From contig CAJXDV010000017.1 of assembly GCA_913052435.1 (NCBI GenBank), forward strand, positions 1 to 14,365: 14,365 nucleotides of DNA, given 5' to 3'. The notes beneath the pieces were generated by a model that saw nothing but the letters and a program-made list of their open reading frames with translations, was not told where the DNA came from and searched no databases. Numbering within the stretch: position 1 is the first letter of the stretch; each line of letters begins with the position of its first letter. This stretch comes from an uncultured Pelagibacteraceae bacterium. GTDB taxonomy: Bacteria > Pseudomonadota > Alphaproteobacteria > Pelagibacterales > Pelagibacteraceae. Position numbers and translations under genes: made by a program. Of this stretch, positions 7,615 to 14,125 are shown piece by piece.

Positions 7615-8718
7615 TTATAGTACGTATGGCTCAGGTCTAGCATTGCTGTTTAATACTCTTTCAACGGCAAATACGCTAATATCGATTGTTTGATAAGAGC
7701 CAGTTGTAATTAATTCTGTTAGAGCCTTTCCTATTCCGGGTGCTTGCATTAAACCTCTTCCCGTAAAGCCTGAGGCTACATAAACATTTTCATATTTTGG
7801 ATGTTTTCCAACTACTGCATTGTTATCTAGTTTATTACAATCATAATAGCCTGCCCACCCACCTGTTAACTTTAACTCCTCAAATGCAGGTATTCTTTTT
7901 GCAAGAGCTGGCCAAACTAGTTCTTCAAAATCGTTCCATGCCGGCTCAAGATCTTCAGCATCAAATACAGATTTAGGAGAACCAGCTAAATATTCTTTAC
8001 CCTCAGGTCTCCAATATACTCCTGTTGTTAAATCTCCTATTAATGGCATTTCAGGAAAATGTTTGGGACATTTAACCCTGAAAACTGTGTGTTTTTGTGG
8101 AACTACAGGAATATCTTCTAAAAGCTGTTTGGTCCAACATCCGGCAGCAGAAACAATAATTTTAGCATTTATTTCAGATAAACTTTTTACTTCTCCTTTT
8201 ATAAATTCTGCACCAAGTTCAATTGCTTTACTTTTAAGTGCACTGTGAAACATGAAAGGATCTATCCAGCCTTCACTTTTATTATCTGTATAGGTTGCTG
8301 TTTCAATTCCTTCACTATTAACATAGGGGAAAATTTTGCTTAACTCTGAACCTTTTATATTCTTTGTTCCAGCATCACATTCTTTATGATTTTGTAAAGC
8401 TCTATATTGTTCTTCAGCATGCTCAGGGCCAAATACCAATAGATATCCGTTAGGTACTATGCTGGCAGTTGGATTTGGATTCTTTTCCGTTTTTAATAAT
8501 TCAGGAATTTGAAAAATAAATTCTCTTGCAAATTTCCCAAGAAGAATGTTTTCTTTTTGATAAAATTGTCTTCTAAAACCACCTAATGATAAAGGGAAAG
8601 AAGCAGATTTATAAGCTGGGTCTCTTTCAATTACCTTAACTTTTCTGCCCTCTTTTGATAAAAAATAAGCAGATGCTGCACCAATAATTCCACCACCAAC
8701 AATAACAACATCATCCAT
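7615..8718 (-). CDS. DAO-family FAD-dependent oxidoreductase (FOXRED1 / sarcosine oxidase-like), fourth gene of gcv operon
   Basis: This 367-residue flavoprotein begins MDDVVIVGGGIIGAASAYFL, a classic FAD dinucleotide-binding fold with GxGxxG at 8-13 and the ribose-binding Glu31. The C-terminal part has LTGGWAGYYDCNKLDNNAVV followed by ASGFTGRGLMQAPGIGKAL, closely resembling FOXRED1 and sarcosine/dimethylglycine oxidase relatives. Such enzymes usually oxidise the C-N bond of an N-methyl or amino acid. The frame extends back to an ATG at 8790 inside gcvP, but the ATG at 8718, one base after the gcvP stop, fits a normal N-terminus starting just before the FAD motif. Position behind gcvTHP suggests it makes or consumes glycine, for example by oxidising sarcosine, but the substrate is inferred. 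It should share the glycine riboswitch control of the operon. Confidence 0.85.
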   Translation of the reverse strand: MDDVVIVGGGIIGAASAYFLSKEGRKVKVIERDPAYKSASFPLSLGGFRRQFYQKENILLGKFAREFIFQIPELLKTEKNPNPTASIVPNGYLLVFGPEHAEEQYRALQNHKECDAGTKNIKGSELSKIFPYVNSEGIETATYTDNKSEGWIDPFMFHSALKSKAIELGAEFIKGEVKSLSEINAKIIVSAAGCWTKQLLEDIPVVPQKHTVFRVKCPKHFPEMPLIGDLTTGVYWRPEGKEYLAGSPKSVFDAEDLEPAWNDFEELVWPALAKRIPAFEELKLTGGWAGYYDCNKLDNNAVVGKHPKYENVYVASGFTGRGLMQAPGIGKALTELITTGSYQTIDISVFAVERVLNSNARPEPYVL

Positions 8719-8719
8719 A

Positions 8720-11587
8720 TTATGCAGCATCTTCTTTGAATTCATCCATGCTTGGACAAGTACAATAAATGTTTTTATCACCATACACATTGTCTACTCT
8801 TGCTACAGGAGGCCAAAACTTATTTGCTTTAAGAAATTTTTCTGGATAAGCAGCCTCTTCTCTTGAATATTTATGATTCCAATTATTTGATGTTAATTCT
8901 AAATTAGTATGAGGTGCATTTTTGATTGGATTATCAATTTTATCAAATTCTCCTGACATTATTTTATCTATCTCAGATTTTATTTTAATTAAAGTATCGC
9001 AAAATCTATTTAGTTCGGATAAGCTTTCACTTTCAGTCGGTTCAATCATCATGGTTCCTGGAACTGGCCATGACATGGTTGGAGCATGAAAGCCAAAATC
9101 TACTAATCTCTTAGCTATATCTTCTTCGGTTACGCCAGTTTCGCTTTTGATGGTCCTAATATCAATAATACATTCATGTGCCACGTTCCCATTCTTTCCG
9201 GCATATAAAATTGGGAAATGATTTTTTAATTTTTTAGCAACATAATTTGCATTAAGAATTGCATTTTGAGTGGCTAATTTTAAACCATCAGATCCCATCA
9301 TTTTAATATACATCCATGAAATAGATAGAATACTCGAACTTCCCCAAGGAGCAGCTGAAACTGCGCCTATTCCATTTGCCGGACCACAATCTTTAATAAC
9401 TGAGTGACTAGGTAAATAAATTTCTAAATGTTTTTTGCATGCAATTGGACCCATGCCAGGACCTCCACCACCATGAGGAATAGAAAATGTTTTATGCAAA
9501 TTAATATGACACACATCTGGACCAAAATTGCCTGGTTTTGAGATACCAACTAGAGCATTTAAATTTGCTCCATCCATATAAACCTGTCCTCTATGCTTGT
9601 GAATTAGTTCACAAATATCTATAATTTTTTCTTCAAAGACTCCATGTGTAGATGGATAAGTTACCATTAAAGCACCTAAATTTTCTGAGTGCTTTTCAGC
9701 TTTATTTTTTAAGTCTTCATAATCGACATTTCCATCTTTGTCACAATTAACAACAACAACTTTCATTCCGGCCATTTGAGCACTTGCAGGATTGGTTCCA
9801 TGAGCAGAGCTTGGTATTAAACAAACATTTCTATTACTTTCACTTCTTTCAGAATGATATTTTCTAATCACCATCAATCCTGCATATTCGCCTTGTGCAC
9901 CAGCATTTGGTTGTAAAGAAACTCCAGAAAAACCAGTAATTGATCTTAACCAATTCTTTAGATCGGTAAAAAGTGTTCTAAAACCGTCCATTTGCTCTAT
10001 TGGAGCAAATGGATGTGGTTCAGCAAATTCTCTCCAGGTTATTGGCATCATTTCAGCAACAGCATTTAGTTTCATTGTACATGATCCTAGGGCAATCATA
10101 GACCTATTAAGTGAAATATCTTTATTCTCCAATTTTTTTAAGTATCTAACCATCTCTGTTTCAGAATGATAAGTATTAAAAATAGGATGCTCTAAATATT
10201 TTGAGCTTCTCAATAAACTTTTAGGTAAGTTGGGCAAACTTTCAGTTGGGTTTTCTTTAATTGATTCTGTGCAATTAAAAATTTTTAACAATTGATTGGC
10301 TCTATAAACATTTTTCTTTTCATCAAAAGAAATAGATAACATTGAAGAATTTACTTTTCTGATATTAACTTTATTATCTAGGGCATTTTTATATATTTGT
10401 TCAGTTTTATCTTTCGTTATAATTGTTACTGTGTCAAAAAAAGAATCTGAATATAACTTATATCCAGATTGTTTCAGTTTATCAGAGAAGTTTTTTGCTA
10501 ACTGTGAAACTCTTTCCGAAATTGCTCTTATTCCTTCGGGTCCATGGTAAATTGCATAGGCTGCTGAAACAATTGCTAACAAAGCTTGAGCTGTGCAAAT
10601 ATTACTTGTCGCTTTATCTCTTCTTATATGTTGTTCTCTCGTTTGTAGAGACAGTCTATAAGCTTTATTGCCATGTCTATCTACAGATACACCAATTATT
10701 CTTCCTGGCATTGATCTTTTAAATTCATCTTTTGTTGCAAAAAAAGCCGCATGTGGACCACCATAACCCATTGGAATTCCAAATCTTTGGGAACTACCAA
10801 CCGCTATATCTGCTCCTAATTCTCTGGGAGTTTTAAGCTTAGCTAAAGCCAACAAATCACACGCTAAAATTGCTTTTCCCTTTTTCTTATGAATTTTACT
10901 TATACTTTCACTTGGATCTTTTATGTCTCCAAGCGTTCCTGGGTATTGAATAATTCCACAAACTAAATCTTCTTTTAATTTATCCAATTCTTCATTATCG
11001 TTACCAACAATCATTTTTAATCCCATTGGCTCTGCTCTAGTTTTAACAACATCAATAGTTTGTGGGTGACAATTTTCAGAAATAAATATTAAATTAGAGT
11101 CACTTTTATTTATTCTATGACTAAGACCCATTGCTTCCGCAACGGCCGTTCCCTCATCAAGCAACGATGCATTCGCAATGTCCATTCCGGTAAAATCAAT
11201 AATCATTTGTTGAAAGTTTAATAACATTTCTAATCTTCCTTGAGCGACTTCAGGTTGATACGGTGTATAAGAGGTATACCATCCTGGATTTTCAAGAATA
11301 TTTCTTACAATTACATTAGGTGTATAAGTTCCATAATAACCCATTCCAATGAAATTTGAGTAAATTTGATTTTTTTTCGATACAATTTTTAACTTTCTTA
11401 AAGCTTCATACTCAGAATTAGGTTCTCCAATACTTAACTCGTCCTTGAAATGAATTTTTTCAGGAACTGTGTCTTTAATTAAATCATCTAAAGATTCGTA
11501 ACCTAGCTCATTCAACATTTTTGATTGTTCTTCTTTTGAAGTGCCAATATGTCTTTTTATAAAATCTTTTTGAGAATTATGTAACAT
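8720..11587 (-). CDS. gcvP: Glycine dehydrogenase (decarboxylating), P protein of the glycine cleavage system
   Basis: This 955-residue single-chain P protein decarboxylates glycine using pyridoxal phosphate and loads the aminomethyl group onto the lipoyl arm of GcvH. The full family length is present. Landmarks: N-terminal FIKRHIG (9-15); YTPYQPEVAQGRLEMLLNFQ (107-126); SLLDEGTAVAEAM (141-153); HPFAPIEQMDGF in the second half (525-536); GSCTMKLNA (501-509); PSSAHGTNPASAQMAGM (592-608); and the cofactor site HINLHKTFSIPHGGGGPGMGP (694-714), with Lys699 the expected Schiff-base lysine. The fused form (not split gcvPA/gcvPB) is usual for proteobacteria. The ATG shares one base with the gcvH stop (TAATG), implying translational coupling. 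The last codon lies one base before the start of the FAD oxidoreductase. The assignment is certain. Confidence 0.98.
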   Translation of the reverse strand: MLHNSQKDFIKRHIGTSKEEQSKMLNELGYESLDDLIKDTVPEKIHFKDELSIGEPNSEYEALRKLKIVSKKNQIYSNFIGMGYYGTYTPNVIVRNILENPGWYTSYTPYQPEVAQGRLEMLLNFQQMIIDFTGMDIANASLLDEGTAVAEAMGLSHRINKSDSNLIFISENCHPQTIDVVKTRAEPMGLKMIVGNDNEELDKLKEDLVCGIIQYPGTLGDIKDPSESISKIHKKKGKAILACDLLALAKLKTPRELGADIAVGSSQRFGIPMGYGGPHAAFFATKDEFKRSMPGRIIGVSVDRHGNKAYRLSLQTREQHIRRDKATSNICTAQALLAIVSAAYAIYHGPEGIRAISERVSQLAKNFSDKLKQSGYKLYSDSFFDTVTIITKDKTEQIYKNALDNKVNIRKVNSSMLSISFDEKKNVYRANQLLKIFNCTESIKENPTESLPNLPKSLLRSSKYLEHPIFNTYHSETEMVRYLKKLENKDISLNRSMIALGSCTMKLNAVAEMMPITWREFAEPHPFAPIEQMDGFRTLFTDLKNWLRSITGFSGVSLQPNAGAQGEYAGLMVIRKYHSERSESNRNVCLIPSSAHGTNPASAQMAGMKVVVVNCDKDGNVDYEDLKNKAEKHSENLGALMVTYPSTHGVFEEKIIDICELIHKHRGQVYMDGANLNALVGISKPGNFGPDVCHINLHKTFSIPHGGGGPGMGPIACKKHLEIYLPSHSVIKDCGPANGIGAVSAAPWGSSSILSISWMYIKMMGSDGLKLATQNAILNANYVAKKLKNHFPILYAGKNGNVAHECIIDIRTIKSETGVTEEDIAKRLVDFGFHAPTMSWPVPGTMMIEPTESESLSELNRFCDTLIKIKSEIDKIMSGEFDKIDNPIKNAPHTNLELTSNNWNHKYSREEAAYPEKFLKANKFWPPVARVDNVYGDKNIYCTCPSMDEFKEDAA

Positions 11588-11967
11588 TAGCTTGCGCTTT
11601 CTTTTGCAAATTTATCGTATTCTTCTTTGTTCATTAGGCTGTCTAGTTCTGATTTATCTTTAATTTTAAGCTTAAATAACCACGAGTTTCCTTCTGGATC
11701 TGTATTTATTTTTGAAGCATCATCTACAATTGATTTGTTAATATCAACTACCTCTCCACTTACTGGTGTGTAAACGTCACTAGCAGCTTTTGTTGACTCA
11801 ATCACTCCTACCGTTCCATCTTTTTCGACATTTAACCCTTTTTCTGGAAGTTCAACAAATACAATATCACCTAACATTTCTGTTGCATTTTTTGTTATAC
11901 CAATTGTAGCAACTTCTCCTTCTAGTTTTATCCACTCGTGTTCTTTGGAAAATTTAAATTCAGACAT
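11587..11967 (-). CDS. gcvH: Glycine cleavage system H protein (lipoyl carrier)
   Basis: This 126-residue protein carries the aminomethyl intermediate between GcvP, GcvT and the dihydrolipoamide dehydrogenase. The lipoylation site is Lys60 in [17 protein letters not shown] (57-73); upstream [10 protein letters not shown] (8-17) and [17 protein letters not shown] (28-44) are typical. The length matches the family. Its ATG lies inside the end of gcvT (8-base overlap) and is preceded by a strong Shine-Dalgarno, AAGGAGA, about 5 bases upstream and within the gcvT coding sequence. The gene is thus well translated independently as well as by coupling. The L protein (Lpd) is not in the window. Confidence 0.98.
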
Positions 11968-13066
11968 TTATCTCTCCTTTAACATGGTTTTTTTTATAAA
12001 ATGGTAAATTACAAATATTAGCTGGCACCCTTTTTCCCCTAACTTCTAAAAATATTTTTGTATTTAATGAAGAATAATTATTTTCCACATACCCCATAGC
12101 TATTGAACATTCTACGCTAGGTCCGAATGTTCCGCTTGTAATTTTTCCAATTTCTTGATTTTCATCATTAAATATTTTTGTTTCTTCTCTCGCTATAACT
12201 CTTGTTTCAGGTTTAATTCCAACTCTTAATCTTTTTACGCCTTCATTAATTTGGTCCTTTATAATACTTGAGCCAGGATAATTACTTTCAATTCTATTTT
12301 TTGAAATTGCCCATTTCAAATTTGCTTCTATTGGGCTTGTTTTAATATCTATATCATTTCCATATAAACAAAGGCCTGCTTCTAATCTCAAAGTATCTCT
12401 AGCTCCTAATCCAATTAAATTTGAACCATTTTCTAGCAATAATTCTACAAATCTCTCTGCTTTTTGATTATTAATAGAAACTTCAAATCCGTCTTCACCT
12501 GTATAACCAGATCGAGTTATATAGATTTTGGTATCTTCAAAATTAAAATTATCTCCATTCATAAATTTAAGTTTATTTGAATTTGGTATTATTTTTTCTA
12601 ATACATTTTTTGCATCTGGTCCTTGAATTGCGATCAATGAAAGGTTTTCATTTAAATTCATGTCATACTTATTATTTAATTTTTCTTTAATAATTTTAAA
12701 ATCTTGATCTTTGCAAGCAGCATTTAGAATGATTAGATAACCATCTTTGATTCTTGTAATTATTAGATCATCGTATATTCCAGCCTTATCATTCATCAAA
12801 AATGAATATTTGCTTTGATTTAAATTTATTTTTTTTAAATCTAATGGAAATATTTTTTCTAAACTTTCAGTTAGATCTTCTTTTCCAAAAATAAATAGTT
12901 GACCCATATGAGAAACATCAAATATTCCTGATTTTGTTCTAGTGAATTTATGTTCTTGAATAATTCCATCTTTATATTGAATTGGCATTTGATAACCTGC
13001 AAATTCAACAAACTTAGCTCCATGTTTTTGATGAAGATTAAATAATGATGTTTTTTTAGATTCCAT
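11960..13066 (-). CDS. gcvT: Aminomethyltransferase, T protein of the glycine cleavage system
   Basis: This 368-residue enzyme transfers the methylene group from aminomethyl-GcvH to tetrahydrofolate, releasing ammonia. Landmarks: [13 protein letters not shown] (19-31), [10 protein letters not shown] (47-56), [11 protein letters not shown] (95-105) with the conserved folate-site Asp, [13 protein letters not shown] (186-198), [20 protein letters not shown] (219-238), and in the C-terminal barrel ITSGTFGPS (309-317) and LPFYKKN (354-360). The length is usual. It is the first gene of the operon and is preceded by the tandem glycine riboswitch. Its Shine-Dalgarno is a modest AAGAG (13076-13072) 5 bases before ATG. 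That sequence and the AUG itself can pair perfectly with the aptamer II linker/P1 strand, so this start is probably the regulated step. Identity and start are secure. Confidence 0.97.
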
Positions 13067-13152
13067 ATTAACTCTTAATTAACCCCCTCTGTCTATTTGC
13101 CTGAGAGATTTACTCCTTCGGCGAGAATTATTCTCTTTCCAGAGTTAATATG
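13064..13152 (-). promoter_or_regulatory. Predicted expression platform: 12-bp pairing that masks the gcvT RBS and start codon
   Basis: In the transcript the segment CATATTAACTCT (13152-13141) is perfectly complementary to AGAGTTAATATG (13075-13064). The second arm contains the Shine-Dalgarno AGAG and the whole AUG of gcvT. The first arm overlaps CUCUG (13144-13140), which in the folded aptamer II should form P1 with CAGAG (13091-13087). The two pairings are mutually exclusive. Glycine binding should stabilise P1 and free the start site, giving a translational ON switch. The complementarity is seen directly; the mechanism is inferred. Confidence 0.7.
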
Positions 13153-13224
13153 TACGGTCCTTTTGCCTGAGAGTTTCCGGGGTGGTTGCTCCTTCGGCGC
13201 TACACTTAAGTAGTCTCTCCCGTA
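13081..13224 (-). ncRNA. Tandem glycine riboswitch (two aptamers) upstream of gcvT
   Basis: The region contains two consecutive glycine aptamers in the 5' leader of gcvT. Aptamer I (about 13224-13153) opens with UACGG, GAGAG, then has GCGCCGAAGGAGCAA, CUCUCAGGCAAAAGGA and closing CCGUA. UACGG/CCGUA forms P1 and GAGAG/CUCUC forms P2. Aptamer II (about 13144-13087) has CUCUGGAAAGAG, CUCGCCGAAGGAGUAA, UCUCUCAGGCAAAUAGACAGAG, with CUCUG/CAGAG as P1. Both aptamers keep the conserved GCCGAAGGAG and CUCAGGCAAA cores. Known gcvT-linked tandem riboswitches turn on glycine cleavage when glycine is abundant; the same is expected here. No U-tract terminator follows, so control is more likely translational than transcriptional. 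Confidence 0.97.
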
Positions 13225-13229
13225 AAGAA

Positions 13230-13239
13230 ATTATATCAT
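13230..13239 (-). promoter_or_regulatory. Extended -10 promoter of the gcvTHP operon
   Basis: The minus strand reads TGATATAAT (13238-13230), an extended -10 element (TG, one base, then perfect TATAAT). Transcription would begin about 7 bases later, near 13223, exactly where the riboswitch begins. No good -35 is seen at 17 bases (TAAAAG), which fits an extended -10 promoter. It sits in the short gap after the upstream permease gene. Confidence 0.6.
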
Positions 13240-13255
13240 GGATAAGTGAATTCTT

Positions 13256-14125
13256 TTAGGTCTTTTTTCTTTTTTCCAACAATGAGTAAAATTGAATAAG
13301 AACTGCAATAATGATGATTGATCCTCCAATTAGTGCAACAAATTGTGGAACTTCATCTAAGAAAATCCACGCCCAAAAAGGTCCGAAAACTGCTTCTGTC
13401 ATCATTAAAATTCCTACCATTGCTGATAAAGTTTTTTTTGCTCCTATAGTTATAAGAATAAAGCCAAGTCCAAGTTGAAAAAAGCCGGCTATAAAAGCTA
13501 AGAAGATATCATTTGTGGATATATTAATTTTTGTAGAAACAGAATAACCTATTAGCATAGCCACTATTCCCGCAAAGAGTTGTAATGGTACCATATCAAC
13601 ATTCGGATATTTTCTTACGATTATAATTAAAACTGCAAACGAACATGGCATTACAAAAGCAACAAGGTTACCAGACAATTGTCCTGGAGATAAAGAATTA
13701 CCTACCATTAGTATTATTCCAGAAATTGCAAGAATTATAGAAGTTAAAGTTAGTTTAGATATTTTTTCTTTCAAAAATAAATATCCAAAGATTGCCAAAA
13801 AGATCGCTTGAGTTTGAATAATAAAATTAGTGTTAGCAACCGTTGTATTATACATTGCGAAAACGTAGGCGCTAAAACCACAACCAAGTATTATTCCGCC
13901 AAAAAATCCAGGTATTCCCGATTCATACAGTGCACGAAAAACTTTTTTTTTATAAGTGAATAATAAAAAAATACTAACTAGAACAACAAAAAATAATTGT
14001 CTCCAAAACAATATTTGCCACAGCGTGGCTCCTTCAAAAGATTTTACAATTAGACCACCAAAACTTAAACAAAAGGCCCCTAAAAAAACTAACAATGGTC
14101 CAGGTAATTTTGAAATTAAATTCAT
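13256..14125 (-). CDS. EamA/DMT-superfamily membrane permease
   Basis: This 289-residue protein has about ten hydrophobic segments arranged as two EamA repeats (about 8-140 and 150-280), typical of drug/metabolite transporters. Landmarks include GAFCLSFGGLIVKSF (16-30), WQILFWRQLFF (36-46), NTNFIIQTQAIFLAIFGYLF (98-117), FLKEKISKLT (117-126) and, in the second half, MMTEAVFGPFWAWIFLDEVP (about 241-260). The C-terminus is a short basic tail (EKRKKT). DMT proteins move amino acids, nucleotide sugars or other metabolites, but the substrate is not readable from sequence. The ATG overlaps the stop of the preceding PxpC/KipA-like gene by 4 bases (ATGA), so the two are likely co-translated. The riboswitch and its promoter lie downstream and do not control it. 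Family is secure, substrate unknown. Confidence 0.88.
   Translation of the reverse strand: MNLISKLPGPLLVFLGAFCLSFGGLIVKSFEGATLWQILFWRQLFFVVLVSIFLLFTYKKKVFRALYESGIPGFFGGIILGCGFSAYVFAMYNTTVANTNFIIQTQAIFLAIFGYLFLKEKISKLTLTSIILAISGIILMVGNSLSPGQLSGNLVAFVMPCSFAVLIIIVRKYPNVDMVPLQLFAGIVAMLIGYSVSTKINISTNDIFLAFIAGFFQLGLGFILITIGAKKTLSAMVGILMMTEAVFGPFWAWIFLDEVPQFVALIGGSIIIIAVLIQFYSLLEKRKKT

Follow-up and report, generated by a model that had tools for sequence, protein, structure and literature searches.

The closest described counterpart of the element studied here is the tandem glycine riboswitch upstream of gcvT in Neisseria gonorrhoeae, a translational ON switch supported by mutations in the account given in PMC13104608. 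There, in the glycine-free state, nucleotides of aptamer 2 pair with the translation initiation region, the pairing described being between P3a, P3, and P1 nucleotides of aptamer 2 and the region just upstream of the start. The gcvT riboswitch of Bacillus subtilis likewise carries tandem aptamers through which glycine turns the gcv genes on, but its control, as presented in PMC6944388 and PMC13104608, is by transcription termination. The initial annotation of the present sequence set a start-codon-masking platform against the many gcvT glycine riboswitches that act on transcription termination and held it to be worth testing in a streamlined genome. In Pseudomonadota, however, a translational platform is nothing out of the ordinary, since translational control is described as favored there (PMC12452182) and is demonstrated in Neisseria (PMC13104608). 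The SAR11 glycine riboswitches before gcvT and glcB listed in PMC2704228 and PMC5069720 are the same elements as those treated below, and the SAR11 passages of these papers give names and genes and no expression platform. More generally, riboswitch expression platforms vary so greatly that covariation is hard to obtain for them, as noted in PMC13273304.

We analyzed a window of 14,365 nucleotides (the whole of the stretch considered, contig CAJXDV010000017.1 of assembly GCA_913052435.1) from an uncultured Pelagibacteraceae bacterium. The gcvT leader and the genes behind it comprise the following features.

13230..13238, minus strand: possible extended -10 element TGATATAAT, judged from sequence, with a predicted start near A13223, where P1 of aptamer I begins
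13145..13232, minus strand: glycine aptamer I (68.1 bits with RF00504, whose gathering score is 32)
13079..13152, minus strand: glycine aptamer II (RF00504, 51.4 bits in a whole-genome search, gathering score 32)
13152-13141, minus strand: 5' arm of the proposed OFF helix, CAUAUUAACUCU = CATATTAACTCT, made of the inter-aptamer linker and the first four bases of P1-II
13140..13144, minus strand: P1-II 5' strand CUCUG, of which CUCU is common to P1-II and the OFF helix
13087..13091, minus strand: P1-II 3' strand CAGAG, placed by sequence, a 60-row alignment, and Rfam models
13075-13064, minus strand: 3' arm of the proposed OFF helix, AGAGUUAAUAUG = AGAGTTAATATG, ending on the gcvT AUG
11960..13066, minus strand: gcvT, the putative regulated gene, a 368-aa frame matching the NCBIfam GcvT equivalog above cut-off
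11587-11967, minus strand: gcvH, an open reading frame after gcvT matching its NCBIfam equivalog above cut-off
8720-11587, minus strand: gcvP, an open reading frame after gcvH matching its NCBIfam equivalog above cut-off

Both aptamers exceed the RF00504 gathering score, making the element a glycine riboswitch by curated sequence and structure score, and they lie adjacent (13232-13145 and 13152-13079) before a single platform, in tandem arrangement. Membership in the Glycine-GGAnGA tandem family, RF03166, was not recovered: the two aptamers together scored 72.8 bits against a gathering score of 110, and the leader GGAUGA and linker GACG positions of that alignment are gaps or unlike bases in the window. 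The assignment of CTCTG (13144-13140) opposite CAGAG (13091-13087) as P1-II, made at the outset, is borne out in the sequence. Among 60 aligned relatives, the four inner pairs form in 59 or 60 rows and the outermost in only 17, so P1-II is usually 4 bp. Since TGATATAAT adjoins aptamer I, the transcript may start on the first base of P1, without the leader strand that a kink-turn needs. SAR11 glycine-riboswitch reads described in PMC5069720 begin at the first P1 nucleotide or up to 15 nt upstream; a promoter scan called none at 13230-13238, and an exact TATAAT lies upstream in only 18 of 152 SAR11 gcvT leaders. At the far end of the gene group, the gcvP frame and the next frame, a FAD-dependent oxidoreductase (7615-8790; best NCBIfam match below cut-off), would overlap by 71 nt at 8720-8790 if the first ATG is used.

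The 12-bp complementarity between the linker and the gcvT start region, from which this analysis set out, is present with its arms at exactly 13152-13141 and 13075-13064, the gcvT ATG occupying 13066-13064. Exactly this helix appears in the unconstrained minimum-energy fold of the window leader; its central pair, 13146-13070, has a predicted probability of 0.994 to 0.998, and the start region has a predicted mean unpaired probability of 0.007 to 0.009 in the free state. The helix score was reached by none of 200 dinucleotide shuffles. The leader as a whole does not fold with extreme energy, 13 of 200 shuffles folding at least as well (z, -1.6). Contiguous Watson-Crick helices of at least 12 bp between the start region and the upstream 165 nt were found at 22 of 34 starts with a glycine aptamer upstream. 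None of the 151 remaining ORF starts of the window and SAR11 relatives, which had no such aptamer upstream, showed one, and a 400-kb stretch of a different SAR11 genome (G161) gave a single case among 269 ORF starts. The linker:start complementarity in the window is thus real and not a product of chance. The single G161 case (L326, about position 10956, plus strand) belongs to a 462-aa ORF beginning MKLRKEFDSIG and is an all-A-T 12-bp match with its partner 31 nt upstream.

The masked stretch had been described as running from the Shine-Dalgarno sequence through the start codon. It does cover the start codon and the preceding 9 nt, but contains no recognizable Shine-Dalgarno sequence. Judged by GGAG, AGGA, and GAGG motifs, none of the 34 riboswitch-led starts has such a sequence at -16..-4, and by these motifs the platform is not of the Shine-Dalgarno-sequestering kind. 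Across 400 kb of G161, these motifs occurred at -16..-4 in 27 of 269 starts, compared to 11 at -46..-34 and 22 at +33..+45. Neither a Shine-Dalgarno nor a G-profile peak was seen upstream of the 269 ORFs in G161 positions 1-400000 (L326-L345), in profiles that are blurred because starts were taken as the first in-frame ATG. G161 is probably HTCC1062, given that its two riboswitch places fall inside intergenic regions tabulated for that strain in PMC2704228; in its own gcvT leader, L305, 10 of the 12 helix pairs form.

We asked whether the helix is kept among relatives, mostly uncultured Pelagibacteraceae, that is, SAR11. The sample consisted of the best 120 loci of a genus-level search, 80 more from named genomes, 20 chosen by region from an order-level search, and the order search's own loci; because the 120 loci are the top of a score-ranked list, weak aptamers are under-sampled. 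Counts cover genomes with a match (103 of 151, 124 of 197, and 80 of 142 in the genus-, order-, and class-level searches, respectively), and a landmark script placed 234 of 244 SAR11 sequences. In all 153 distinct SAR11 gcvT leaders that passed the script, from six genera (130 in g1, 16 in g5, 3 in g6, 2 in g2, and 1 each in g3 and g4), the linker/P1-II strand is the best partner of the start region, with a helix of 10 to 16 bp. The helix score was reached by 2 of 9960 shuffles (1 of 5360 in g1, 0 of 3200 in g5, 0 of 600 in g6, 0 of 400 in g2, 1 of 200 in g3, and 0 of 200 in g4). In a fixed register, every position is paired in 101 of 130 g1 leaders and 13 of 16 g5 leaders. Three further g4 leaders, dropped by the landmark script, pair more weakly (L289, -8.4; L296, -10.5; L302, -3.8 kcal/mol), with two or three unpaired cells each.

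The conserved helix also carries compensatory changes, as the comparison with related genomes proposed in the initial annotation was meant to reveal. In a 60-row MAFFT alignment not fitted to structure, 96.4% of 720 cells are paired, compared to 89.9% in shuffled alignments and 30 to 46% with slid partners. Double-change cells (36 versus 10.9 shuffled), further pair types (17 versus 11.9), and the covariation score (0.216 versus 0.101) are all raised, and 0 of 500 shuffles reached any of these values or the paired fraction, while the number of pairs with a double change (5 versus 2.7) was matched by 19 of 500; as all these counts are of sequences, independent events are fewer. Column 11:103 is U-A in g1 and g2 and A-U in g3, g5, and part of g4 and g6; column 12:102 is U-A but A-U in g2 and g4; column 10:112 is A-U but U-A in part of g4; and column 7:115 is C-G but A-U in part of g1 or U-A in part of g6. 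G-U pairs fill 38 of the 720 cells, which fits RNA and makes an inverted repeat acting at the DNA level less likely. RNAalifold run on the same alignment also returns the linker:start helix. In L286 and L288, MAFFT puts the far arm in the wrong position, and the actual helices are longer. When arms were exchanged between groups, pairing was weaker than with the native arms almost throughout the swap matrix, in which the -6.7 outlier of g5 reflects an L243 arm taken at the wrong place. In a g1 subgroup (L040, L041, L042, L045, L076, and L136) and in L230, L242, and L288, the helix stops a few bases upstream of the AUG and is kept through a changed register or sequence. Since the helix persists where the AUG has moved, conservation applies to the masking of the initiation region and not to the letters of the AUG.

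Other alphaproteobacterial gcvT riboswitches share the tandem aptamers before gcvT but differ in what follows, with a linker that is rarely the best partner of the start and a longer stretch between aptamer II and the start. Thirty of 49 fetched class-level loci were placed, the other 19 lacking landmarks or a gcvT start, and for several of the thirty the script chose a GTG or TTG start that may be wrong. The linker was the best partner in only 1 of the 30 (L277, 8 bp; z, -0.7), and the observed score was reached in 2755 of 6000 shuffles, a chance level that led us to reject a general alphaproteobacterial platform. The distance from CAGG to the start is 33 to 40 nt in g1 compared to 43 to 137 nt (median, 76.5) in these 30 leaders, their median linker is 15 nt compared to 12 nt in SAR11, and a GATG occurs in the linker of 14 of 30 compared to 0 of 152 SAR11 leaders. 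Start-region pairing to the linker is predicted at a mean of 0.96 in 129 g1 gcvT leaders and of 0.18 in the 30.

A direct two-state translational ON switch had been proposed for the window. The arrangement does predict translational ON control, but the exchange is not clean. P1-II and the OFF helix have only CUCU in common, and P1-II excludes CUCU:AGAG but not the linker part. When the leader was folded with and without the P1 constraint, as had been suggested, the start region was cheaper to open with P1-II in place (7.8 to 2.5 kcal/mol), but 9 linker:start pairs persisted in the minimum-energy fold, nested and over the AUG. Imposing P1-II on the window leader raises the ensemble energy from -43.8 to -38.2, a cost of about 5.6 kcal/mol. 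The median opening cost falls from 8.5 to 3.1 kcal/mol in 129 g1 gcvT leaders, and relief is also predicted in g5 (9.7 to 4.3), g3 (6.1 to 1.8), and g4 (10.5 to 3.8 kcal/mol). Relief is small in the type-strain leader L305 (7.8 to 6.1) and absent in g6 (6.8 to 6.8), and the change is reversed in g2 (7.8 to 10.2); all of these are secondary-structure energies without tertiary contacts, with L168 left out. Because P1-II shares only CUCU with the OFF helix, its formation alone can leave 9 bp over the AUG, and the linker must also be freed. Its release is perhaps completed by dimerization of the aptamers, which a 9-bp linker helix would hinder.

Based on the sequence comparisons and folding models, we consider it likely that the tandem glycine riboswitch switches on gcvT translation, probably together with that of gcvH and gcvP. 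When glycine is absent, the linker and the first four bases of P1-II would pair with the 12 bases ending on the AUG, and this pairing would block the ribosome from the start codon. Glycine binding would stabilize aptamer II and P1-II, which would take CUCU from the OFF helix, and packing of the aptamers would probably also pull the linker out, such that the AUG opens. We infer that the leader binds glycine, that its free state is OFF in the cell, and that binding releases the linker.

The helix might instead act on gcvT translation as a brake that is constitutive or tied to growth, or serve to stabilize the short leader, with little effect of glycine. That 9 bp of the helix are compatible with P1-II, and that opening is not eased by forced P1-II in g2 and g6, would fit such a role, but the 5' arm is part of P1-II in every aligned row (columns 15 to 18 are shared), as a switch strand needs, and forced P1-II cheapens opening in most leaders; we regard this explanation as improbable. 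Somewhat less probable again is that control lies mainly in transcription attenuation, whether intrinsic or Rho-dependent, with translational masking as its by-product. Attenuation operates in some glycine riboswitches, such as that of B. subtilis gcvT as described in PMC13104608 and PMC6944388, and an untranslated mRNA could lie open to Rho. Against it, a scan of 12950-13450 found no terminator-like sites, in agreement with the early suggestion that no separate anti-terminator is needed, and the roughly 20 nt from P1-II to the AUG contain no U-run.

Two other explanations carry still less weight. Since P2 and P3 of aptamer II lie within the extended helix in the predicted fold, this helix could be read as the glycine-bound aptamer itself, with a long alternative P1, which would make the element an OFF switch. 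However, Rfam models put P1-II on the CAGAG right after the conserved GAC, and the sense would be the opposite of that given for gcv operons in PMC13104608, which makes this reading very unlikely. As for chance or the low complexity of an A+T-rich genome, the arms are indeed A+T-rich and, among 269 other starts of a SAR11 genome, one shows a 12-bp match made up of A-T pairs alone, but shuffles, background starts, the swap matrix, and two-sided changes all speak against it, and cross-genus covariation refutes it for gcvT, leaving it a negligible probability.

The platform is not general to SAR11 glycine riboswitches: in leaders of glcB, the malate synthase gene, the arm is mostly shorter with a fixed mismatch, and three leaders lack it. 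As a contiguous helix, the best partner of the glcB start region is aptamer I in 35 of 40 leaders, and the score was reached by 612 of 1760 shuffles, so that scoring of this kind lends no support to glcB sharing the gcvT platform. With a mismatch allowed, 9 pairs recur among 40 distinct g1 glcB leaders, 8 of them in 36 to 40 of the 40, and in 38 of the 40 an invariant A-C or A-A mismatch breaks the arm (L034-L153 and others; L143 is outside the leader set used for one glcB comparison). The native linker duplex has a median of -10.7 and a null fraction of 0.03, start-region pairing to the linker is predicted at a mean of 0.51, and forcing P1-II barely alters opening (5.5 to 5.0). The constant mismatch may be a weak point that sets a different threshold. 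The arm is absent from the window genome's own glcB leader (L073; G000:C6:12770-13370), where the start region is predicted to be mostly open, and from two g5 glcB leaders, L291 and L301. In the latter two, a 12-bp match joins the start region to the aptamer I core (AUGUAGCGCCGA); 0 of 400 shuffles reach it, and it is perhaps a different platform nearer the Neisseria type.

A broader and decidedly tentative proposal is that SAR11 made the inter-aptamer linker, which in many other alphaproteobacteria holds a GATG-type kink-turn-like motif, into the switching strand. Aptamer packing, rather than P1-II formation alone, would then free the start codon, and cooperativity would be tied directly to AUG access in an organism that barely uses Shine-Dalgarno sequences. 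The glcB riboswitch of the same genomes would be a weaker version with a fixed internal mismatch, and that mismatch would give it a different glycine threshold.

The literature searched, which did not extend to Tripp et al. 2009 and Torgerson et al. 2020, named no start-codon-masking platform in SAR11. Provisionally, then, the platform looks new as a variant, the glycine riboswitches of SAR11 gcvT and the translational switch of Neisseria being already known. SAR11 genomes here supply covariation for one riboswitch expression platform, together with a concrete model for how glycine may open the glycine cleavage genes in one of the ocean's commonest bacterial groups, and a case in which access to the start codon, rather than to a Shine-Dalgarno sequence, seems to be masked. 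As in N. gonorrhoeae, tandem aptamers stand before gcvT and would act as an ON switch by pairing with the initiation region when glycine is absent. Unlike in Neisseria, the strand that pairs in SAR11 is the inter-aptamer linker together with the 5' strand of P1-II, and the AUG itself is included in most leaders.
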